Shown here: one piece after another, positions 31,407 to 51,540 of the stretch | Layout: each line of letters opens with the position of its first letter | How positions within the stretch are numbered: the stretch's first letter is position 1 | Source: Chlorops oryzae | Lineage: Eukaryota; Arthropoda; Insecta; Diptera; Chloropidae | Direction of reading: 5' to 3' | Assembly (NCBI GenBank): GCA_020466095.1 | Contig: CM035807.1 | Span: 64,542,561 to 64,606,560 of the forward strand | Length of the DNA: 64,000 nucleotides | Notes under the pieces: generated by a model | Seen by the model: only the letters and a program-made list of their open reading frames with translations | Database searches by the model: none | What the model was told of the DNA's origin: nothing | Program-made: the position numbers and the translations under genes

Positions 31407-32034
31407 AATATTTAGGACTTATCCTCGATAACAAACTACATTGGAACAATCATTTTGAAAAAGCCTATACTAAAGCACTACCAGGCAGTGGTACGTCTAA
31501 TTTTCACATATGGGTGTTTAGTCTGGTAGTAAAAGGTCACGCAAACTAAATCCATTACCATTGGTTCAAAACTTCAGAGACTTGCGTGTCTCTTAATAAC
31601 CGGTGCGATGAAGACATACCCTCTAGCAGCACTTGAAGCTATTGTTGGGCTGACTCCCTTGCACATTCACGTCCAAACATCAGCTGCACTTTGAGCAATT
31701 AGGCTGAAGATACCAACCAAACTGCTTCTTCCTGACTATGGTCACCAAAGGATTTTGAAGTGGTTTGGAGTCAACAAAATACCACGTGAGTGAATTTCTT
31801 GACGCAGAGCTCGACTTTGGAAGAAAATTCAAAGTGCACTTCTCATCCCGGTCAACGTGGTCGAATTGACCCCAAAAGCTTGATCTGGTACACCGATTGA
31901 TCAAAAATGGATATCGGGACTGGTTCAGGTATATATGGACCAGGGACAAGAATATCGGAACCTATGGGCATATAGCCTAGTGTCTTCCAAGCCGAAATCA
32001 CTGCAATAAATATATGCGTAAGATCCATAATCAG

Positions 32035-32525
32035 TGTTGTGAGGATTTTCCGGGAATCCTTCACTTGCCTATCGGACCGAATATTCTAAAGGAAACGCTC
32101 TTTAGTTTTTGTATAATTTATAATTATTTATTAAACGACTGTAAAGACTACTAGCAACTACTTATTGTAAAACGGCTATCAGCAACTGTTGGCAACTATC
32201 TCTTAGTATTAAAATGCACAGCTTATATACTAATTATTCTTAACCTGGTACTGCGCTCTGCAGACGCTGGTGTGTTCTTCGGGAACGGTGTCATGGGCCT
32301 GCTGACGCATGCTGACCTGTGCAGATGTACTTCCGGGTATCTTGGTCGTTTTGTGCCATGACCAGCATATTCGGTGATTCTGCGTCAGTCACCTATGACG
32401 CAACGTTGTACTTGGCACGCTTGTACGGTGGTGCGAAATGCCAGCTTGCGTTTTTGGCCGTCTGCCGTCGTTAGCGGTATTGCGTAAGCTACAAAATGAG
32501 CTGCTCTGCTGTTTGACTCATAACA
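32035..32525 (-). repeat. 3' LTR of Gypsy element 1
   Basis: About 491 bp. On the minus strand it starts TGTTATGAGTC, right after the polypurine tract, and ends CCTCACAACA. About 370 bp (32157-32525) closely match 39974-40331. The terminal about 120 bp match the other LTR poorly. Confidence 0.8.
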
Positions 32526-32541
32526 TCCCTCCCCCTTTGAA
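32526..32541 (-). promoter_or_regulatory. polypurine tract of Gypsy element 1
   Basis: The minus strand reads CTTCAAAGGGGGAGGGA immediately before the LTR start TGTTATGAG. This is the standard primer for plus-strand DNA synthesis and fixes the element's orientation. Confidence 0.85.
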
Positions 32542-34299
32542 GACGATGCCACGTTTTGGCATTCAAATTAACGGTGGAAGGTAAGGGAATGTTTGTCATT
32601 GCTCAAAAGCGATTGCCTCAGGAACCATCTTTGTAATTTTTTCGGCGAAGACGGTGATGGAAGATGGGTAAGCAGACGACCAGAAATCGAGAGGTTTGTG
32701 GTTCAAACCCAGCGGGTAGATTTAAAAAATATGTTATATGCAGTGGAGCCGTTTTAGTATTTGGAGCCATTGGTTCTTAGAGGATTTGCGATAGGAAAAA
32801 CTTGTTGATTTGGTCCCAAAATTTAACATGATTTTGACGTTTTCTTGTTGTCATATATGGCTTGGTGGTTGCGTTGTGTTGTTGCGTGCATCCATCAGTA
32901 TGGTCAGCCTCCCAACGATGTCATTTCCTGTGTCATTCTAGGTATTTATTTACTATTATTATTTTTTTTCTCATACTAGTTCTTTTTAATTTTTTTTTGT
33001 GTGTTATATATATATATATATATATTAATTAAGGATTTCTTATGTTTATTTTTTTATTTATTTATTTTTTAATTTTTTTTTTATTAATTTGTTTTTTTTT
33101 TTTGACATTAAATATTTTCTTTGCTTCCAACTATCTCCCACCTGTAATTTACAAAATCTGGACTTACAAATTATCTTAAAAGTCTATTTTGAGTTATATA
33201 GTTTTAACCTACTAATTTTTGATTCTTCTTAAGACTACTTTGTTATCAAAATTTGAGTTTTTTGTTGTTGTCATTTTAAGTTAAATTAAATTTTTTTTTA
33301 TTTTATCTTTCGTAATAATAGAAATCTCTGCGTTTTTTCTTTTCTTGAAATATTCTACTTATTTTAAAATGTTTAAATTTTATCTCAGGATATTTCTCTA
33401 TGCAATTCCATTAAAGTGCTCAAAAGATATTATTCTACCATTATTTATAGCTATATTTTTGTTTCTTTATAAGCGTTTTTTTTTTCAGTAGGCAAAATAC
33501 ATATATTTTACTTTTTTTTATAATTCTTTTAAAATTCGAGCTTTTCTTTTTAATTGTAGTGCAGAAGTGGGGAATTTCTCGCTTTTTATTTTTTTGTTTG
33601 TTTCTAATGTGAAGTGAAATGTAACAATTTTTTGTTTGTTTATTTATTTTTTTTTAATTTGTATATCTCCAATTTTTCTCTTTTTAATATTTTTTTTCTT
33701 TTTTTTTTCTTACCAATCACTCTTCTCCTCTTCTTATTTTGGAATCTAAATTGAACTTAGGAATTTCAACACTTTCAATTGAGTTTCCAAATTTAGAAGA
33801 GAAATTTTACGTCTGGTATCCATCGTTAAACCTCATTGGTCTTCCTGAAAAGAAAAAGAAAACATGAAATTATTCCCTACCTGTGCTTCAACTATTCTCG
33901 TGTCCCTGCCTTTATTTCGGCTGTGCAAATTGAACTTGAAAGTTTTTAATTTTTGCATAAGTAATTTTGAACTTGGCATCTTTTCCTTTCGACTGTCTTT
34001 TGTTTCTTTGAGTTCAATTATTATTTTCTTTTTTTTCCAATATTGCAATTTCAAGTGCACTATACAAGAAATTGTGTTTGCTCATCAACATTTACTTTGC
34101 GGCTGGCTTCAACTTATCAGATTTTTAAAAAAATTTCTGCTTTTATTGTGTCTTCGCTCGTTTTGATATGCGAGCACTTTTGGTCTTGAACAGAAAAATC
34201 GTTAATTTTTTATATATTTATTTATTTCGACATATGTAATTGTCGCGTGTTGGAGCTTTATTTCTGGTAGCGCCAGGTTGAAATAAGATCGCTTCGCAA
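32542..34299. other. AT-rich tail of Gypsy element 1, no coding sequence
   Basis: Long T-rich runs, a (TA)n tract at about 33005-33025, and no recognisable protein on either strand. It lies between the PTP pseudogene and the polypurine tract, where an env gene or 3' untranslated sequence would be. Its unusual length suggests flanking sequence may have been carried in with the PTP. Confidence 0.5.
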
Positions 34300-34326
34300 A
34301 TAAGAAAAAGCATAATATGAATAAAT

Positions 34327-35093
34327 TTATTTGATAATTTTTTCATTTAGTATGCTAAGGGCCTGGTAACAAAATATGTATTGTGTGGCGATTGGAATTG
34401 CTTGCGCCATTTGTGCACGTATTTTGTTTACTATTTCCCGTACCCTTATGTTCTTTTTATTTTCTTTCAAATCTAAGGCGATATTTAAAGCTATAAAAAC
34501 GCATGTTCTACCCTGCGTGCAGCGCAATGAACTATCATCGGCGGCGGATTTGTTATATAAGTAGTTAACCTCTTTTGATTTTCCTTAACTAATCTTATAA
34601 ATTGCCATAATAGTGTAGCATTTGGTATGCCCTGATCGGCCCAAGCCTTAAATTTCCAATGGTAAATTGTTCTAGAAGTTTCTGATTTTTGATCGTATAG
34701 TTCTTACTCCGTACAAACAAAATTCTTGTTTTCATTTTTACTGAGCGTTTTAACGCGAAATTGCAAAAAGATTTTGGTGGAATTTACGTCAGCTTCCCAG
34801 TATCTAGCACATTCTCTCGACTTCGTGAGCATAACTATGGTATTACAATTTTGTTCCCATACCATTTGAAAGAAGTCTTGTATGGAATTTTCACGAGGTC
34901 CCTGCGTAGCTATATATGACTTCGTCTTTTTGAATCCATCCACAAAACTAGAATGAATATATCCTGACATGTTCTCGTGTTGTCGTGATAATTTAACACG
35001 ACTGTGGTCAAAACAATGCACGTTCCTATAGCGATTTTTTTCTGAACTTCTTAGAAATTGTTTAAAAGATCCCTTGACTGGAATTCGAATCAA
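34327..35093 (-). pseudogene. protein tyrosine phosphatase domain inside LTR element, inactivated
   Basis: The minus strand encodes an almost complete, intronless classical PTP domain. SSEKNRYRNVHCFDHSRVKL (from about 35045) is the KNRY motif. YIHSSFVDGFK, YIATQGP (about 34900) and FFQMVWEQN follow. A stop interrupts at 34704-34706. The same frame then gives KAWADQGIP (WPD loop with Pro changed to Ala) and PPMIVHC at about 34530. A frameshift inside the HC-x5-R phosphate loop moves the rest to another frame, ending QYIFCYQAL, the conserved Gln-loop region. About 250 codons in all. It begins within a few bases of the pol stop, in the env position. No introns are visible, so it came from an RNA or an intronless gene. 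Source (host or viral PTP) is unknown. Confidence 0.85.
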
Positions 35094-36300
35094 TTGTAAA
35101 AATTTCTTTTAACAAATTTCTGTGGAAGGTTTTTTTCTTTGCCCTTGATTAAAATTCTAGCATTTACAGAAGTGGGAAGTGATACAACTCTATAAGGTCC
35201 CTTCCAAATGGGCGAAAATTTATTCTTTCTGGTTTGGTTTTTCAGCCAGACCTTATCTCCTACCTTAAATTCTCTAATTTTCGATCCCTTATCATATATA
35301 TATCATATATGATTTCGAATTTTGCGTTCTTTAAATCTGGTACTTTAATATTTTCGAATAATTATCAATATTGTATAGAGGAGCAGGCTTCCTTTTTAGA
35401 TTAACAGGTACATCAAAGTCGAAACCAAAAAGTGTTTTGCTAGGCGTTTGTTTCGTAGTTCTGTGTACAGTATTATTGTGTACATGCATGGCATGTTGAT
35501 GCCAATCATCCCAATTTGTACCGTCGTCTTTCGCAAAAGTTCTTAAAAATTCGGCTAAAGGTCTATGGCTTCTTTCTAAAGCACCATTGGCTTGCGGATG
35601 ATATGGAGAAGTTTCTATTTTCGTAATTCCCATTAGCTTGCATACTTCCTTAAAAAGTTTTGAAGTGAAGTTTGTGTCATTGTCAGTGACAAGAATTCGT
35701 GGAATATTGAATTTTGAAATTACTTCGTTAAAAAACGCTTTTGCTACTGTCGATGATTCTGCATCGGGAATGCCTGTACATATGAAAAATTTTGAAAAAT
35801 CATTTAGAATTGTAAGAATATATATATTACCGCTTGAAGTGACTGGTGGGGAACCCACCATGCCCATATATATCTTATCAAAAGGATGGTGGGATATCTT
35901 TGTGAGAACCATCGGCATTTTCTCGACTTTTGAACTTTTATTTTTCTGACAGAGTTCACATGTTTTCACGTAATCTTTTACTTGTTTTTGCATGCCTTGC
36001 CACTTAAATTGTTTTCCAATTCGCAAGAACGTCTTCATTGTCCCTTTATGACCTTCTATGGGTGAATCATGAAATGTTTTGATGACCTTTACAGTCTCCT
36101 TTGGGTCAGTTAAAACTTGTGCCATGTCTGCTTCAATGTTTTCATCATTTATTTCATCATGGTTTTCTTTAGCCTCAGCTCTTGTTACTACAGATATTGT
36201 GCTGTCGAAATGTGGAATTCTACTCAAGACCCAGCGTTTTGATTATTTTTTCCCGGCTTATAAACAATTTCAAAATCATACTCTAAAAGTTTAAATTGGC
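35094..36300 (-). CDS. integrase and C-terminal pol module of Gypsy element 1
   Basis: A 298-residue open frame (36227-35331) followed, after a small frameshift, by the C-terminal chromatin/GPF-like module (VGDKVWLKNQT, then WKGPYRVV) to about 35100. The zinc-binding H-x-H ... CELCQK region is at about 35960-36070. The second catalytic Asp lies in VTDNDTNFTS and the Glu in NGALERSHRPLAEF. The first Asp position reads IYMGMVG where relatives have M-D-I-V-G, so a catalytic residue is lost. It catalyses insertion of the DNA copy in live relatives. This copy is likely inactive. Confidence 0.85.
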
Positions 36301-38772
36301 TATACCTTTTAATGGCTTATGATCGGTGTATATTTTAAAAGGTCTCCCCAATAAATAGGTCCTACAATTTTTCACAGCCCAAACTATTGCCAAAAATTCT
36401 TTCTAAATTATAGAATATCGTTTCTCAGTTTCACTTAACGCTCTGCTTGCAAAATAAATAGGCAAATCTTCCCCTGGTTCTCCTTGCGAGAGAACAGCTC
36501 CTTAGGCCTCATTACTAGCGTCTGTTGTTAGAATAAAAGTTTTCAAAAAATCTGGATATTGAAGTAAAGGAGGTGAGGCTACCGCAGCTTTAAGCTGATC
36601 TATGGCCTTCTGACAATCATTATTCCATTCAAACTTAACGTCTTTCTACCCGACACATTCTGTGTCGAGGGTATATTGCGTTTGTTGGGTTGTGTGTAAC
36701 ACCCAGAACCAGTCGAGATAGCCTATACAAAATGTATATAGAAATGATCAGCGTCACCAGGAGATTCGATTTAGACATGTCCGTCTGTTTGTCGGCTGTC
36801 CGTCTGTCTGTCTGTCTGTTTGTATACAGTTACCTTATCTAAGGAGTTGAGCTATCTTGAAGAAATTTGGTATGCGTGCTAACAAGGACATGAGTAAGAA
36901 CAAGTTCGAGAATAGACCCGATCGGACCATTTTTAGGGGTACCTCCAGTACTAGGGTTTGTTACGAAAATCACAAAAACTGCTCTAAAATCGAAGTATTT
37001 CAACTAATTTGGATAAAATTTGATATTTCAACATGTTTAAAGGCAAGAAATACGATTTCAAAAAATTGGAAAAGTGGGCGTGACAGAAGGGCGTTTTTTG
37101 AAAATTCTCTCCTACACCCGAAATTCAAATGGGACTTGAACGAAATTTGGCACTTATGCCTCGTATGTAGTCACAAACATCCTCCCCAAAAATTTTTTCG
37201 ATCGGACCATTATTAAGGGTACCTCTAGTACTAGGGTCTGTCACAAAAATCCCAAAAATGCCTCAAAAGCGGACTTTATTGAAATATATCAATGAAACTT
37301 AGAATTTGAGCGTATATATAAGGGTCCGATTAGAATCCAAAAAAAAAAAAAAAATTGAAAATTGGGCGTGGAAAAAGGGCGGTTTTCATTTATAAATTTA
37401 ACAAAAGTCGGTATATGGGTCTCCTTTTGCCCTTAAACACCTGTTGATATAAAAAATTATGTGTCTGTGTCGGGTATTCTATTGTCCGGCTCGCCTGACT
37501 ATACACCCTTACTTGTTTATAAATAAATCTTACGATTTAAGAGATATTTTTCAATTTTTATATAAGTATTAGAAAATAAGTCTTGTTTCTTAATAATTTG
37601 TTTAGTGGAACTGAAATTTTTGCCGCATTTGGTATAAATTTGCGATAATAATTGATTAATCCAAGGAAAGCTTGAAACTCTTTTACATTTCTGGGTGGTG
37701 ATATTTTTTGTACACTTTCTACCTTTAGTGGATCTGGCAGCACGCCTGATTCCGAACATTTTTGCCTTCAATATAAAACTTCTTTTTTAAGAAAATAACA
37801 TTTCTCGTTTTGAAGTTTTAAACTGTTATGTCTTAAGACTTCAAAAACCTTACATAATCTATCTTCATGCTCTTCTAAATTCCTAGCATAAATAACGATA
37901 TCATCAAGATAAACAAAACAATCAATTCCCTGCAAACCAGTGAGAATGCTATTCATTACGCGTTGAAAAGTTGCAGGTGCTCCCGTGAGCCCATGAGGCA
38001 TTCTGGTAAATTCAAAATGTCCCATTCCCGTGCTTAATACTGTCTTCTCCTTATCTTTTTCTTCGATAAGCATTTGATGGTATCCGCTGGCTAAATCTAA
38101 AGTTGGAAAATACCTCCTGCAACCCAACTGATCGAGAATTTTATCAATTCTAGGAATTGGAAAAACTTGTTAAATAGTAATATCGTTCAATTTTCGGAAA
38201 TCTACCACAAGTCGCCATTTTTTTTTCCCATCGGCACCGGCCTTTTTTGGTACAAACAATATCGGAGAATTCCAGGGAGACCTGCTTGGAGAAATAATGC
38301 CATCTTTAAGCATTTTGACAACCTGTGAGGTTATTTCTGTTTTATGCAATTCTGGTACTCTAAATTGCCTAATATTAACTGGTGGCTGTCCTGGTTCTGT
38401 TGCAATTTCGTGTTTAAGAACTGTCGTATATGAAAGCTTATCCTCACTCAAATGAAAAATTTCAGAATATTCTCTGAATACGCTCTTTATAGATTTTAAT
38501 TCTTCTTCGTTTAAACTATTATCTAAACGTACTGTTTCCATAATCAATTGAAAACGATCATTCATTTTCTCATCCTTATTGACAAAATGTATCCCTGTTT
38601 TTCCTAACTCCTCATAATCCCTAAGAAGAGTATAATTAAGCTCCTTTAGCTGTCCAAATTTTACATTTTTTCTACTTGCATTCAGAACTGGTACAAATCC
38701 CTTTCCATTTTTGATTCTTTTTATTACATTTCCAACGTATACTCCTTGCAAAATTTCTTGCTTATGTACCAC
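36290..38772 (-). pseudogene. reverse transcriptase and RNase H of Gypsy element 1, interrupted
   Basis: RT: 38772-38170 ends KWRLVVDFRKLNDITI-stop. 38127-37768 holds LDLASGYHQMLIEEKDK and the catalytic CFVYLDDIVIYA (about 37900). 37743-37558 is the connection (KEFQAFLGLINYYRKFI). A family A DINE-1 (36645-37518) then splits the gene. RNase H resumes at 36640-36290 with FILTTDASNEA, YFASRALSETEKRYS and YLLGRPFKIYTDHKPL, with stops near 36510 and 36405. Pattern is of the Gypsy superfamily. Damage is light apart from the insertion. Confidence 0.87.
36645..37518 (+). mobile_element. DINE-1-like family A, copy 4, inside Gypsy element 1 pol
   Basis: CTACCCGACACATTCTGTG at the 5' end, GTCT/GTCC/GTTT microsatellite at about 36780-36822, GGGCG blocks, and 3' GTGTCGGGTATTCTATTGTC with hairpin and CCCTTACTTGTTT. 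It is antisense to the LTR element and younger than it. Confidence 0.87.
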
Positions 38773-38919
38773 TATATCTCCTGATTCAATATTAACCTTA
38801 ATTGGAATTATTTTTGAAGTTCTAGCGTTTATCGTAATTGACTCAACTACGCATATCCTTCTAGTCGGTTGCTCTGAACAAAGTGGTAATCTTGCGATTT
38901 CCTTGCTATTTGCAAAAAA

Positions 38920-39456
38920 TCAAATCGTCTTATTTACTCCATTCGTAACCGAACGGGTCCACAGTTCATCTCTACCCAAAAGTCCATCTGCTGGTATTTT
39001 GCTACCAAATGGAAGTACGTGCATATTGAAATTTAATGACTTGTTATCTTGGTGAGATATTCTTACAGTTCCCTCTGTATTAATGCTTCCACCAAATGCT
39101 CCACCTAATTGCTTAACCTTTGACCTGTCAACTTCAACTTCTTCTTTTAAGACTTCAGATTTGAGCAAACTAGTGTCTGCCCCTGTATCGATAAGCAGAG
39201 TTAATTTATCATTTTTAGCTTGTCCACACGGAAATACAATAAATGCATCATCTGATCGACATCCCTCATCTATGGTTAAAGAATTTGTTGAACTGTCAAA
39301 GTTGTTTAGTTTTAGGTCTTTGAGCAGCCTTTTCTTCTTAATTGACTCTGACTTACTCAATTTTCTATTTAAATGCAATTCCATTGTTTTTCTTTCTAAA
39401 ACAACTAAGCCCTTTGAAAGCGACTCTTGTAGACTAGTACACAAAATAATCAACAT
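38920..39456 (-). CDS. retropepsin-like protease ORF of Gypsy element 1
   Basis: Open frame of 178 codons. LTLLIDTGADTSLL (about 39185-39225) contains the D-T-G active site of an aspartic protease and MHVLPFGSKIPADGLLGRDE supplies the downstream flap/G-R-D-like end. The first 70 residues are Lys/Leu-rich with no zinc knuckle. Processing of gag-pol would be its normal role, but no gag precedes it. A 66-codon Lys/Glu-rich frame at 39824-39624 is all that lies between it and the 5' LTR. Confidence 0.8.
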   Translation of the reverse strand: MLIILCTSLQESLSKGLVVLERKTMELHLNRKLSKSESIKKKRLLKDLKLNNFDSSTNSLTIDEGCRSDDAFIVFPCGQAKNDKLTLLIDTGADTSLLKSEVLKEEVEVDRSKVKQLGGAFGGSINTEGTVRISHQDNKSLNFNMHVLPFGSKIPADGLLGRDELWTRSVTNGVNKTI

Positions 39457-39839
39457 ACTTAATAGTATGATCCATCCGTTGGTGAAAAATTGCTTTACAC
39501 ATGAATCACTAGAATATGATATTTCATAAACATGTCTTGGATAGGTATACTCAACAACTTGTTCAGAAAATGTAACCTTCTTATTAGTTTATTTTTGCTT
39601 TATAACGGAACATATAGGCTCGCTTAGCCTAACGTATGTTTTTTCATCTGCTCACTGCTACTCTGTAGCTGAATTTTGTTTATTTTAATAGTGAAGTCTT
39701 CGACTTCAATTTTATTTATATCCAGTTCCAATAGCAACTGTGACTGACAAGATAAGTTTGATTTTTCCTCTGTGCTCTTTTTCATATTTTTTAATTCTAT
39801 TTTCTTTCGTTCATTTTTCTGCACATTGCCGCCACCGGG

Positions 39840-40331
39840 TACTGGAATAGGCCTGAATTTTACTAATCTATTATTGGCTTTCCGGTCTACTGGCCTTGAC
39901 CGGGCCGTGTATAGTTTCCCTGACTCTGATTTATTAATCGAAATCGATCTTAACTGTAAGAACTACACGTAACTACTTATTGTAAAACGGCTATCAGCAA
40001 CTGTTAGCAACTATCTCTTAGTATTAAAATGCACAGCTTATATACTTATTATTCTTATCCTAGGTCTGCGCTCTCGGGAACGGGAACGGGAACGGTGTCA
40101 TGGGCCTGCTGACGCATGCTGACCTGTGCAGATGTACTTCCGGGTATCTTGGTCGTTTTGTTCCATGACCAGCATATTCGGTGATTCTGCGTCAGTCACT
40201 AATGATGCAACGTTGTACTTGGCACGCTTGTACGGTGGTGCGAAATGCCAGCTTGCGTTTTTGGCCGTCTGCCATCGTTAGCGGTATTGCGTAAGCTACA
40301 AGATGAGCTGCTCTGCTGTTGACTCATAACA
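39840..40331 (-). repeat. 5' LTR of Gypsy element 1 (inner border approximate)
   Basis: 39974-40331 matches 32157-32525 closely, with small indels such as a GGGAAC triplication at about 40076-40098. The outer end CTCATAACA precedes TCAG. The inner 100-130 bp show only patchy similarity to the other LTR, so the LTR/primer-site border could not be fixed and no primer binding site is assigned. Confidence 0.7.
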
Positions 40332-40335
40332 TCAG

Positions 40336-40600: not shown

Positions 40601-42271
40601 CAACAACACGAATTTTAGGCCGATTTTTCTTTTTTTTTTTTGGGCCTTTTTATACCCAGCGTAAGCGGGGTATATTAGTTTTGTGCAAATCTTGTAACAG
40701 GGAGAATTAAGCTCCGGAGATATAGAAAAATGTATATAGAAATGATCAGGATCAAAAACTGAATCGATTAAGACATGTCCGTCTGTCCGTCTGTCCGTCT
40801 GTCCGTCCGTCCGTCTGTCCGTCTGTCCGTCCGTCCGTGGTCGGATCTCCTCCGAAACGGCTGGACCAATCAAGTCGAAATTTGGCACACAGGTATATCG
40901 GGATCCGAGTATGATCCTAAGTAAAAATGGGAGACATCCGCCCACTGCCACGCCCACAAATGAATATAATGTGTTTTCAGTAAAATGCTTGTAACTTGCG
41001 AACCACTCAACACATTCCTTTGATATTTGGTGTACTGGTAAACTACGAAAAGGGACATATCCTGGCAAAAAATGGACGCCGCCCACCTCGAGCCACGCCC
41101 AGAAATAAGCCCAAATTTAAGGGCTTATCGTAACTTGTGAAGTAAAAGGCGTAGAAGCTTCAAATTCGCAACATAGGTTCACCAAGGCGAACGAAAGGTG
41201 TAGGAAAATTTTTTTTATGGCCCGCCCACTGCCACGCCCAAAAATGAAGATTTTTCGTAACTTCCTAAGTAAAAGGCGTAGAAGCTTCGAATTCGCAACA
41301 TAGGTTCACCAAGGCGAATGAAAGGTGTAGGAAAAAATTTTTTGTGGCCCGCCCACTGCCACGCCCACAAATAAAGATTTTTCGTAACTTCCGAAGTAAA
41401 AGGCGTAGAAGCTTCAAATTCGCAACATAGGTTCACCAAGGCGAATGAAAGGTGTAGGAAAATTTTTTTTATGGCCCGCCCACTGCCACGCCCAAAAATG
41501 AAGATTTTTCGTAACTTCCGAAGTAAAAGGCGTAGAAGCTTCGAATTCGCAACATAGGTTCACCAAGGCGAATGAAAGGTGTAGGAAAAAATTTTTAGTG
41601 GCCCGCCCACTTCCACGCCCACAAATAAAGATTTTTCGTAACTTCCGAAGTAAAAGGCGTAGAAGCTTCAAATTCACAACATAGGTTCACCAAGGCGAAT
41701 GAAAGGTGTACGGAAATAATTTATGTTGCCCTCCCACTGCCACGCCCACAAATAGAGAAGCAAAACATAGTGCGCTCATAATGTCGGGACGCTGGGTATT
41801 TCAAAGTCGGGCTTGACCGACTTTAGCTTTCTTACTTGTTTCATTTTCAGTTTGGGGTAATTTTCCATTTTTCAAAATTTATGTTACATTTGGGGCGTTT
41901 TTCATTTTTTGATTAGCGGAAATTTTTCGTAATGAAAAACTACCCTAATTTTGGGGCCTTATTTTCTTATTTGAATTGGGGCAATTGTGCATTATGAAAA
42001 ATTACCCCAAACTTGGGGCGTTTTTTCCTTTTTTGATATGGGACAATTTTTTCATAATGCAAAGTTACCCCAAAAATTTATATATTTTCGGGCCCTTTTT
42101 CGTTCGTATAAAGTTAGGGCTCCACAAAACCCGTTCCCAAATTTGGGATAATTTTTCATTATGAAAAAATACCGCAAATCCAAAAAGGAAAAATGACCCC
42201 AAAGGGATTTTTTCGTTTTTGATCTGGGGTCTTTCTTCATTATGAGAAATTACCCCAATTTTGGGGCCTTT
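40535..42271. repeat. GGCCCCAAA/TTTGGGGTAATTTT repeats, split by DINE-1
   Basis: At 40535-40650 and 41842-42271 short words such as TTTGGGGC, TTTTTCATAATG and AAAATTACCCCAA recur in alternating orientation about every 50-60 bp. The same repeat fills 62050-62780 and 63600-63760, where it belongs to foldback arms. A family B DINE-1 sits between the two parts. Confidence 0.75.
40651..41841 (+). mobile_element. DINE-1-like family B, copy 3 (full length, expanded array)
   Basis: Starts TATACCCAGCGTAAGCGGGG, GTCC/GTCT microsatellite 40778-40838, and ends CGCTGGGTATTTCAAAGTCG, hairpin, TTCTTACTTGTTT. It holds five units of about 125 bp (41110-41740) containing GAAGTAAAAGGCGTAGAAGC and CACCAAGGCGAATGAAAGGT. 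It is inserted within the GGCCCCAAA repeats. Confidence 0.88.
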
Positions 42272-43939: not shown

Positions 43940-44600
43940 TACATTTAAGCATACACATATATATATGTATATATATTAAGTGAAATGAAGTGAAAAAAAA
44001 GAAAAATAATATATATAACATATATCTTTATATATATATTTCTACTGCACGTGTGTATGTGACTGAACTCCTCCTAAACGGCTGGACCGATTTCAATGAA
44101 TTTTTTAGTATGCGTTTTGGTGGCGCCCTGGATGGTTTAGATTTACAAATCACTATCACTGATACCCTCCTCCCTCTTCAAGGGGGTAAAAATGGGATTT
44201 TTTGTGTTTGTTATTATGTTTGTTTTTGTTTTGATTTTGTTTTGTTTTGTTTTTATTTTGTTTTTGTTTTTGTTTTGTTTTTGTTTTTATTTTGTTTTGC
44301 TGTTGTTGATAAATTGATAGATTGACACATTGATAGATTGATGGATAAATGGGTTGATAGATTGATAAATTGATCGATTGGCAGATTGATAGATTGACAG
44401 ATTGACAGAAAATATATTTATAGATTGATAGATAGAAAGATTGATAGATTGATTGATTGACAGATTGATAGATTGATTAATTGAAAGATTGACAGATTGA
44501 TAGGTTGATAGATTGAAAGATTGATAAATTAACAGATTGACCGAATGATAGATTGATAGATAAATATATTGAAAAATTGATAGATTGAGAAATTGATAGT
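43940..44600. repeat. (TA)n, Helitron-like end motif, T-rich and GATAGATT microsatellites
   Basis: A (TATA)n tract at 43955-44040 leads into TGAACTCCTCCTAAACGGCT GGACCGATTT-type sequence (44062-44095), a motif I associate with Helitron-type repeats of arthropods. Then come a GTTTT-rich run (44200-44305) and about 290 bp of variable 8 bp units of the type TTGATAGA (44310-44600). There is no gene. Confidence 0.6.
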
Positions 44601-45247
44601 GTTACTCTTAGGGACAGTAAGTGCAAACGTACCTGGCTGTTATAACGGCGAAGCCATGCAACTTCTCTGGATGTGCGATGGATTTCCTGGCGTTTGCGCG
44701 ACGCGGATTTTTATTTACGTTTATTTAAATGATTTTTGAAAATTAGCGCCTTCTTGGCGGTTTCCTCTTATGGAGAAATTTGTATTTCGAAATATAAGTT
44801 TCAGCCTTCGTGGCGAATGATATTCAATGCGAACACAAAACTATAAATTGTACGTTTAAATTTAAATTTGCCTTCGTGGCGACTTACGCATAAGAAAATT
44901 TTAATTCACTTTTTGTTGTGCACTTTTTAGTTCATTTGAGTCTTACTTATTATTTTGTTGTCTATAAAATTATTAGTTTGTGATGTTGGTTTTGGTTTCT
45001 CTTTTCTTTATAATTTGCGATTTTTTATGAATTTTGGCGGTTGGTTTTTTCACTATTGCGGATCGCGACGCACACTCCGTTTCCATTCATCGAAGACTGT
45101 GCCGTCGTCGCTGGAGGTCGAGCTGTCGAGCGTGAGAGCAGAAAGGTTTCGTTAAAAAGTGATTCGGCTAAAGGCTCGCCTCCAAAGCGGCTGCGGCGAA
45201 AAACGGACATACTGCCCGCCTTGCGCTACGCAATAGATATTTCTTGC

Positions 45248-49683: not shown

Positions 49684-49746
49684 CTACAAAAAAGTATAAA
49701 AAATTTTCAAAGCTTCATTTTGAAAAAAATCCGCCATATTATATTC

Positions 49747-49777
<31 letters not shown>

Positions 49778-51540
49778 GAAAATTCTAACTCACCTACCTC
49801 AAACACCCTCAAAACCAAAGTTTTGGATTTTTTGCCATGTTTTTGGGTTTTGTGAATGAATAGTGACGCTGTGCTGAAATTATCATCATTATTTTCTGTT
49901 TCTCCTGAGTTTTCTATTGCTAGTATTTCTCCAAATTCATTGTTTATTCTGCTCAAAAAATCTGCTACTTTGTTATCCTTGCCTTTTATATAGTTGATAG
50001 TAAAGTCATATTCACCTAATTTTAATAACCATCTTTTTAGTTTTGGATTTATGTCTTTGCCTTTGGTTTTAGTGTGTAACTTTAATATTAAGGGTTGGTG
50101 GTCAGTTAATAGCTCGAACTGTCTGCCATACAAATACGGTCGGAAATAATTTATTGACCAGACTATTGCAAGTTATTCTTTCTCTACTAAGCGTTATTTT
50201 TTTCATGATCATTTAACGTTCTGCTTGCATAAGCAATTGGGTGTTCGCTTTGGGAAAGTACCGCCCCCAATTCATGATCACTAGCATCTGTTGTTAATTT
50301 AAAGCCTTTGGACCAATCTGGGTATTTTAGCAAAGGTGGATTTACAAGAAGGTTTTTTAATTTTTCGAAGTCGTCTATGTATTGGGAATCGTTCACATTT
50401 ACTTTTGAATTTTTTTTCAAATAATTAGTAAGGTTGTATGCAATTTTTTGCATAATCTTTAACAAATTTTCGGTAATAACCTATTATACCAAGAAAAGAT
50501 TTGATTTGTTTTTGAGTCTTGGGGAGTTTAAGTTTCTAAATTGATTCAACTTTGGTTGGATTAGCTTGCATACCTTCTGGGGTAAGAGTATGGCCCAAAT
50601 AAACAGTCTCTTTGCAGAAAAATGCGCATTTATCGATTTGGAGTTTTAAATTATGCTCTCTTAATTTAGAAAAAATTTTATTTATGCTATCAACGTGTTC
50701 TTCGATACTCGTACTTAAAATTAATATGTCGTCGAGGTAGACGAAAGAAATTCTAGTGATATATTCCCGTAGTACTGAATTAATCAACCTTTGAAAGGTT
50801 GAAGGTGCGTTTTTCAGTCCGAATGGCATTCGAATAAATTCATAGTGACCGAATGGAGTGGAGAAGCCAGATTTCCTTCGATCATCTTCTTCAATAAGAA
50901 TTTTATGAAAGCCTTTTGCCAAGTCCAAGGTTGAGAAATAATTAGCTTTCCCTAATTTTTCTAATGTATTTTCTATATTGGGAATAGGGAATTTGTCGCT
51001 GACAGTTATCTCATGAAGCTTACGGTAATCTATTACGATTCGCCATTTTGGCTTGCCTGAGTTATCTAGTTTCTTCGGCATTATCCAGATCGGAGAATTA
51101 TAAGGGGAATTACTTTCTTTAATTATGTTCTGATCTAACATTTCGCTAATTTGTTTGCTTATTTCCTCCTCGTGTATCTTTGGATACCTATATTTCCGAA
51201 TATATATATTTCGTGCATATTGGTCTATCAGTTTGGGTTATAAAACTATGTTTAATTGCATGTGTATTGGTGTATATGGTGAGGTTTAGTCCTTCGTGGT
51301 AAAAAATATATGTGTTTTCTTCTAGTATCGATTTAAGAAATTTTTTTTCGTCCTCATTCATATCGCTTCCATATAATTTTTGACATAATTTTCACTGATA
51401 TTCATCGGTTCCAAGGTATGGATTTCCTTTACTTTATATGGGCAAGAATGAAAAAAATTTATTTTATTGTTATTTATTTCAATATATTCTTCTTCAAGGT
51501 TAATTTTTGCTTTCAATACTTGTAAAATATTTTGACCAAT
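49684..51540 (-). pseudogene. pol (RT and RNase H) of Gypsy element 2
   Basis: 51540-51142 is a broken linker (IHTLEPMNISENYVKN). 51141-50536 is a clean RT: ESNSPYNSPIWIMPKK, LDLAKGFHKILIEED, RMPFGLKNAPSTFQRL and FVYLDDILIL with the YLDD active site at about 50735. 50465-50187 carries FKLTTDASDHELGAVLS, the RNase H Asp. 50133-49800 is [14 protein letters not shown] and [14 protein letters not shown] stop/frameshift lies between these. The end runs into a 24-base poly-T tract at about 49752-49777. Confidence 0.88.

Follow-up and report, generated by a model that had tools for sequence, protein, structure and literature searches.

A Ty3/Gypsy-type retrotransposon family of Chlorops oryzae whose Pol ends in a protein tyrosine phosphatase domain

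Retroviruses can carry off host genes, and no LTR element carrying a protein tyrosine phosphatase (PTP) is described among the top-ranked titles and abstract openings found in an open-licence library. The locus analysed here in Chlorops oryzae raises the question of whether a PTP domain lying inside an LTR retrotransposon is a part of the element, where it came from and what it does there. The window, namely the whole stretch of 64,000 nucleotides that was analysed, contains on the minus strand, at 32035-40331, a single decayed Ty3/Gypsy-type copy with a PTP domain behind the integrase (IN). The preferred reading, to which a probability of about 0.8 is assigned, is that this copy belongs to a recently active and diverse Ty3/Gypsy-type family whose Pol ends in a captured classical PTP that helps the element. 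The features of the window copy are the following.

32031 to 32034, no strand: TCAG target site duplication on the 3' side of the element, read at the element border
32035 to 32525, minus strand: 3' LTR (TGTTATGAGTC...CAACA)
32526 to 32539, minus strand: polypurine tract CAAAGGGGGAGGGA adjoining the 3' LTR, read from the sequence; a similar tract lies at the 3' LTR of other copies
34330 to 35099, minus strand: PTP domain, 91-93% identical in two parts to the intact copy L021 (Pfam and comparison with L021)
35099 to 35105, minus strand: deletion scar between IN and PTP, 7 nt here and 84 nt in L021
35331 to 36242, minus strand: integrase with H2C2 zinc binding domain and rve core (Pfam)
36646 to 37582, no strand: nested insert of repeat DNA within pol (comparison with L021)
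37597 to 38796, minus strand: reverse transcriptase region (Pfam RVT_1 in 37768-38169; tblastn with L021)
38920 to 39588, minus strand: 5' part of pol, putative aspartic protease (open frame; homology to L021 from its position 2363, where RVP matches)
39953 to 40331, minus strand: 5' LTR, whose inner end is gone along with the PBS and gag
40332 to 40335, no strand: TCAG target site duplication on the 5' side of the element, read at the element border

The TCAG duplications by which the initial annotation had delimited the element are thus present at both of its borders. The window copy begins near the start of ORF2: set against L021, it has lost gag and the PBS as well as the inner end of its 5' LTR, and its pol is interrupted by a nested insert about 0.9 kb long; since its LTRs differ at 26 of 379 sites in the parts that are kept, a rearranged stretch included, it is an old copy. 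The PTP domain is recognised by Pfam as PF00102 (Y_phosphatase) in two pieces, at 35108-34704(-) with an E-value of 4.5e-34 and at 34584-34327(-) with 6.6e-10, values far above chance level that rule out a chance motif as the source of the signal. The domain and motifs annotated earlier are all found, namely KNRYRNV, YIATQGP, a WPD-like loop (WADQG) and QYIFCYQAL, together with YIHSSFVDGF. The P-loop is present, although a frame slip that lies between roughly 34512 and 34518 divides it, with HCAAR.. in one frame and ..GRTCVFIAL in the other, and one in-frame TAA is found at 34704-34706.

Other repeats lie in the same window. The reverse transcriptase of another retroelement (PF00078; 30897-31406, plus strand) adjoins the 3' LTR side; a 127-bp tandem repeat at 41096-41758 recurs beside the 3' end of L021 (9487-9900) and beyond the copy L029 (L045, 19-895); an array of 8-bp tandem repeats occupies 44282-44624; and at 49684-51237 on the minus strand there is a second, decayed Gypsy-type pol fragment, with a reverse transcriptase 51% identical to that of L021, in which no PTP was detected.

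The relation between pol and the PTP is best seen in copies that are intact. The search for other copies with pol, PTP and LTR in the same order, which had been proposed for this locus, finds them, L021 being an example. Its ORF1 (705 aa) gives weak gag and zinc-knuckle matches and is overlapped by 100 nt, in a different frame, by ORF2 (1622 aa), which, analysed by pieces with Pfam, matches RVP, RVT_1, RT_RNaseH, Integrase_H2C2 and rve and then PF00102 with an E-value of 1.2e-71; no chromodomain was found behind the IN of L021 (Pfam, E up to 0.1), PF00102 being there instead. A single frame runs from the C-terminal region of the integrase into KNRYRNV (or KNRFKNV) at 14 of 20 loci, and for this reason the PTP is to be considered a domain of Pol. 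The other six are the window copy (L001), with its deletion, L010 and L018, which have inserts, L013, which has a stop in the linker, and L019 and L020, in which part of IN is deleted. By eye, a mariner-like transposase frame breaks Pol just upstream of the PTP in L018. The few bases between pol and PTP noted in the initial annotation do exist in the window; nevertheless, this gap is the product of a small deletion (a net loss of about 77 nt relative to L021) that broke the Pol-PTP frame, while in intact copies the two parts are fused. Nor does the PTP occupy the env position assigned to it there, because it is the C-terminal domain of Pol and env, where present, is downstream of it. In intact copies, therefore, the PTP is fused in frame to the Pol C-terminus in the order PR-RT-RH-IN-PTP; the PR-RT-RH-IN order of L021, the TG..CA LTRs and the short target duplications are those of the Ty3/Gypsy type. 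This anatomy, together with the selection on the PTP described below, can be regarded as nearly certain.

The family is large. With the first PTP piece of the window as query, 151 genome matches were obtained, counting that of the window itself (150 of 437 candidates were scored), and a PF00102 search also gave 151 (150 of 596 candidates scored), spread over many contigs. From the latter, five were set aside, namely one partial match and L046-L049, which look like host PTPs and share 27-39% identity with those of the elements; the remaining 145, classed as element-type by exclusion, are to be taken as a lower bound for the genome, and 37 PTP copies in all were read. Among the 145, 33 lie in frames of at least 1500 aa, although in two of the 33 the match is interrupted by a stop. 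The PTPs fall into at least ten lineages, the ten compared being 39-66% identical to one another, and the capture of a PTP by an LTR element, as first proposed from the window, is borne out by these copies and by the continuous frames. One scan of viral contigs with an alignment of four PTP lineages found no relative. None of the protein-database matches listed (35, 71 and the best 120 of 5389), many of which are unnamed, has a reverse transcriptase or integrase domain, and YIHA, YIHS, NVPC and DVPC occur in none of the 217 proteins from the database searches.

The residues on which phosphatase catalysis depends are retained in the family, which has the HC(X)5R P-loop, the WPD-loop Asp and the KNRY motif of classical PTPs. 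Of the 37 copies read, 34 have an intact HC(X)5RT; it is not intact in the window copy, in L020 and in L018, where the His is changed while Cys and Arg are kept. W.D is disrupted in L020 and intact in the other 36. In the alignment, the catalytic residues (Cys, Arg and Asp) and the His that precedes the Cys are invariant in ten of ten lineages. Lineage A, to which the window copy belongs, has WAD instead of WPD and HCAAG instead of HCSAG in the P-loop, substitutions by which its phosphatase activity could be weaker.

Purifying selection, whose examination across copies had been suggested at the outset, is found in five of six pairs outside lineage A, with dN/dS of 0.12-0.32: three close pairs give 0.24, 0.32 and 0.24 (pooled P 3e-11), and the distant pairs give 0.27 and 0.12, the third being saturated. 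For lineage A, 15 of the 20 small loci were used, with L001, L010, L012, L019 and L020 left out owing to stops or frame slips within the compared part; over all pairs of the 15 copies the PTP has a pN/pS of 0.41, and the upstream part of the integrase 0.28 (11 copies). In five disjoint pairs, made of ten of the 11 copies used for this test out of the 15, the PTP value is 0.49 (P 0.015), a weaker signal. Between lineages, PTP identity is 43-56% and integrase identity 70-80%, with dS saturated in several of the distant pairs of this comparison.

It is likely, judging from these residues, that the element PTP is enzymatically active. The alternative is that it serves mainly as a phosphotyrosine-binding or structural domain of the particle, or as a targeting module of IN, and not as an enzyme. 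Its position behind IN is the one held by the chromodomain in chromoviruses, LTR retrotransposons that likewise carry a cellular domain in frame at the C-terminus of Pol (PMC12440569), although theirs is a chromatin reader and that of the present family a tyrosine-signalling enzyme. The WAD of lineage A goes in the same direction, as does the baculovirus PTP, which is reported to be a structural protein of the virion whose catalysis was dispensable for the trait studied (PMC3320614), so that conserved residues need not mean that activity matters. Of the bracovirus PTPs, only some are described as active (PMC3573978). On the other hand, Asp, Cys and Arg are all kept across the lineages, which is more than binding alone would be expected to require, and a non-enzymatic role is considered unlikely.

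As for the origin of the domain, the 13 element PTPs included in a tree with four host and 24 database PTPs form one clade with support of 100/100, apart from all the others, in a set of sequences that is without PTPN9/Meg2 and bracovirus rows. The assignment to a cellular type comes from profile scores against solved structures: a profile of ten lineages scores 253.7 bits with PTPN9 and 223.1 bits with the next other single-domain kind, and a profile of four lineages 252.4 and 220.3 bits, respectively. Tandem-domain receptor PTPs (Lar, S, alpha and others) outscore PTPN9 in the sum over two domains, their totals being higher because the two domains add up. PTPN9/Meg2 is therefore the best single-domain match, from which the element PTP differs in following IN and in having YIHA at the usual YINA site. 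These comparisons suggest that the PTP was probably captured once, from a cellular mRNA of the PTPN9/Meg2 type.

The initial annotation had considered a different source, a bracovirus gene brought by a parasitoid, on account of the YIHS motif, which it linked to bracovirus PTPs. Most classical PTPs read YINA where the element copies read YIHA, and the majority line of one PTP alignment also reads YINA. YIHS itself turns out to be a local variant, as 35 of 37 copies have YIHA and a single one, that of the window, has YIHS, the remaining one having YINA. The PTPs of bracoviruses, ichnoviruses and baculoviruses are known insect-virus phosphatases, that of baculoviruses being regarded as host-derived (PMC3573978, PMC3320614). 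They are separate genes of DNA viruses, while that of the present family belongs to the Pol of a retroelement. Bracovirus PTP genes are described as intronless too (PMC3573978), and PTPs of bracoviruses and ichnoviruses are frequent among the matches of the window PTP in a viral structure library, searched with an alignment-based model of fair quality (pLDDT 83; 31 for the single-sequence model). Nevertheless, the two best-ranked named bracovirus matches are 28-29% identical, the unnamed first match 32% and two fragments 34 and 37%, while the best cellular protein, aligned by a different method, reaches 39% over 85% of the query; bracovirus PTPs are thus not especially similar to the window copy. 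Since, in addition, PTPN9 is about 30 bits ahead of the other single-domain solved structures, a polydnavirus gene is an improbable source in comparison to a host mRNA. The baculovirus PTP is of the dual-specificity type.

That the PTP is a passenger, a host fragment caught by chance and functionless, would agree with its faster evolution relative to IN and with the stop, frame slip and deletion of the window copy; this is very improbable in view of the catalytic Cys, Arg and Asp kept in all ten lineages, of the dN/dS in the five unsaturated pairs and of the long frames in 33 of the 145 copies among the matches listed. An assembly join, which the initial annotation had named as a danger to its own reading, or a host PTP exon beside an unrelated LTR element, has nothing in its favour except the small gap and broken frame of the window and can be discarded, as can a chance insertion, since one frame joins IN and PTP at 14 of 20 loci of the same genome and the matches lie on many contigs.

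Additional genes are found downstream of the PTP in part of the family, as determined from the ORFs in nine stretches of 9.9 kb. L027 and L029 carry an ORF that matches Baculo_F (5.2e-8 and 2.5e-7, respectively), that is, an F-type env, the two being 57% identical to each other, and L024, L025 and L026 have env remnants of 60 residues. By tblastn no env was detected in the window or in the 3' stretches of L021, L022, L023 and L028. L023 has a third ORF that was considered as a possible env and rejected, as it is a nested mariner. L021 and L022 have no third ORF of at least 150 aa and no similarity to env or to the Ulp1 gene described below, and as these lineage A copies show neither, env and Ulp1 are not required by all members of the family. 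In Gag, Pol and F-type env, L027 and L029 resemble the errantiviruses (gypsy, ZAM and others), which the copies examined also recall in their 4-bp duplications and TG..CA LTRs; they differ in that no errantivirus with a PTP or an Ulp1 gene is described in the titles and abstract openings listed and in that lineage A is without env, on the basis of L021, L022, L023 and the window.

The other downstream gene is a Peptidase_C48 ORF, present in L024, L025, L026 and L028 (PF02902, 6.5e-11 to 9.2e-14), downstream of env in L027 (L043) and, partly, downstream of L029 (L045). Its closest solved structures are yeast Ulp1 (1.6e-8) and SENP5 (1.1e-7), and the active-site set H135, D150, Q192 and C199, lined up with yeast Ulp1, is kept in four of the four sequences aligned; the L028 ORF is only 39% identical and yet keeps His-Asp-Gln-Cys. 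A genome search with this ORF gave at least 130 matches (130 of 870 candidates scored), with identity down to 36% and many with stops. For 54 of the 130, one of the 145 PTPs listed is found on the same strand no more than 6.5 kb upstream of the Ulp1 match, a few of these 54 being fragments of one gene (for example on C529), while in the two control arrangements, on the opposite strand and upstream of a listed PTP, the count is 0 of 130 each; on this basis the Ulp1 gene belongs to the PTP element family. The 76 unlinked matches may correspond to PTP copies beyond the matches listed or to broken copies. Selection on Ulp1 appears as a weak signal between L024 and L043 (dN/dS 0.63, P 0.09), and between L024 and L028 pN/pS is 0.49 (P 9e-22) with dS saturated. 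The Ulp1 ORFs stand as a second captured enzyme of the family, with diversified lineages of their own.

In L027 the 3' part, from the Ulp1 ORF onward (L043), is 94% identical to L026, of lineage B1, while its env is only 57% identical to that of L029 and its PTP 51%, a mosaic of identities that suggests recombination between lineages. Mobile elements with Ulp1 are also known among DNA transposons, since Ginger1 and Mutator elements with Ulp1 or OTU domains are reported in PMC2836005, where the Ulp1 of Ginger1 is described behind a Gypsy-like integrase; the present family differs in that its elements are LTR retroelements with Ulp1 in an ORF of its own, close to the 3' LTR, and with a PTP in Pol besides.

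The family has moved recently. In six of the nine copies examined, the two LTRs show about 99.5-100% identity in their compared parts: 99.8% in L021, 100% in L022, L023 and L025, 100% over 614 bp in L028 and about 99.5-99.8% in L026, for which two overlapping pieces match at 99.7 and 98.9%. L024 has only a 226-bp match (97.8%), and in L027 and L029 the search for an LTR pair gave nothing. L021, L022, L023, L025 and L026, which are all the five copies with both ends read, are flanked by duplications of 4 bp.

The mechanism proposed for the preferred reading, in which the PTP is an enzyme that serves the element, would start with the synthesis of the PTP within Gag-Pol and its packaging alongside reverse transcriptase and IN. 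The element protease would then free the PTP, or the PTP would stay attached to IN, and it would enter a new cell with reverse transcriptase and IN in a small fixed number, where its removal of phosphate from tyrosines of a host protein involved in signalling or trafficking, or of Gag or IN, would benefit the element. That host signalling is the target, rather than a protein of the element, is a tentative proposal that is somewhat less likely to be right than wrong. The Ulp1-type enzyme, made separately, could strip SUMO from host silencing factors; SUMO is reported to be required in fly ovaries for Piwi-mediated silencing (PMC8733420).

A broader and doubtful reading is that of insect endogenous retroviruses armed with two host-derived enzymes, a PTP that each particle contains along with IN and a SUMO protease with an ORF to itself. 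If this were true, the PTP, on arrival in a new cell, would reset the signalling or trafficking of that cell, and the SUMO protease would undo the SUMO-dependent chromatin silencing of transposons by the piRNA pathway; the two would represent, in a retroelement, a counter-defence set of a kind so far known from DNA viruses. The linked Ulp1 gene leads to a sharp prediction, namely that the SUMO-dependent silencing of the host is a target worth attacking.

A signalling enzyme as a standing domain of Pol, kept across lineages that are 39-66% identical and recently mobile, is undescribed in the literature found. With this family it can be tested in a natural setting whether tyrosine phosphorylation is manipulated by retroelements at entry, at nuclear import or at integration, and copies that have or lack env and Ulp1 provide dozens of natural replicates within a single genome.
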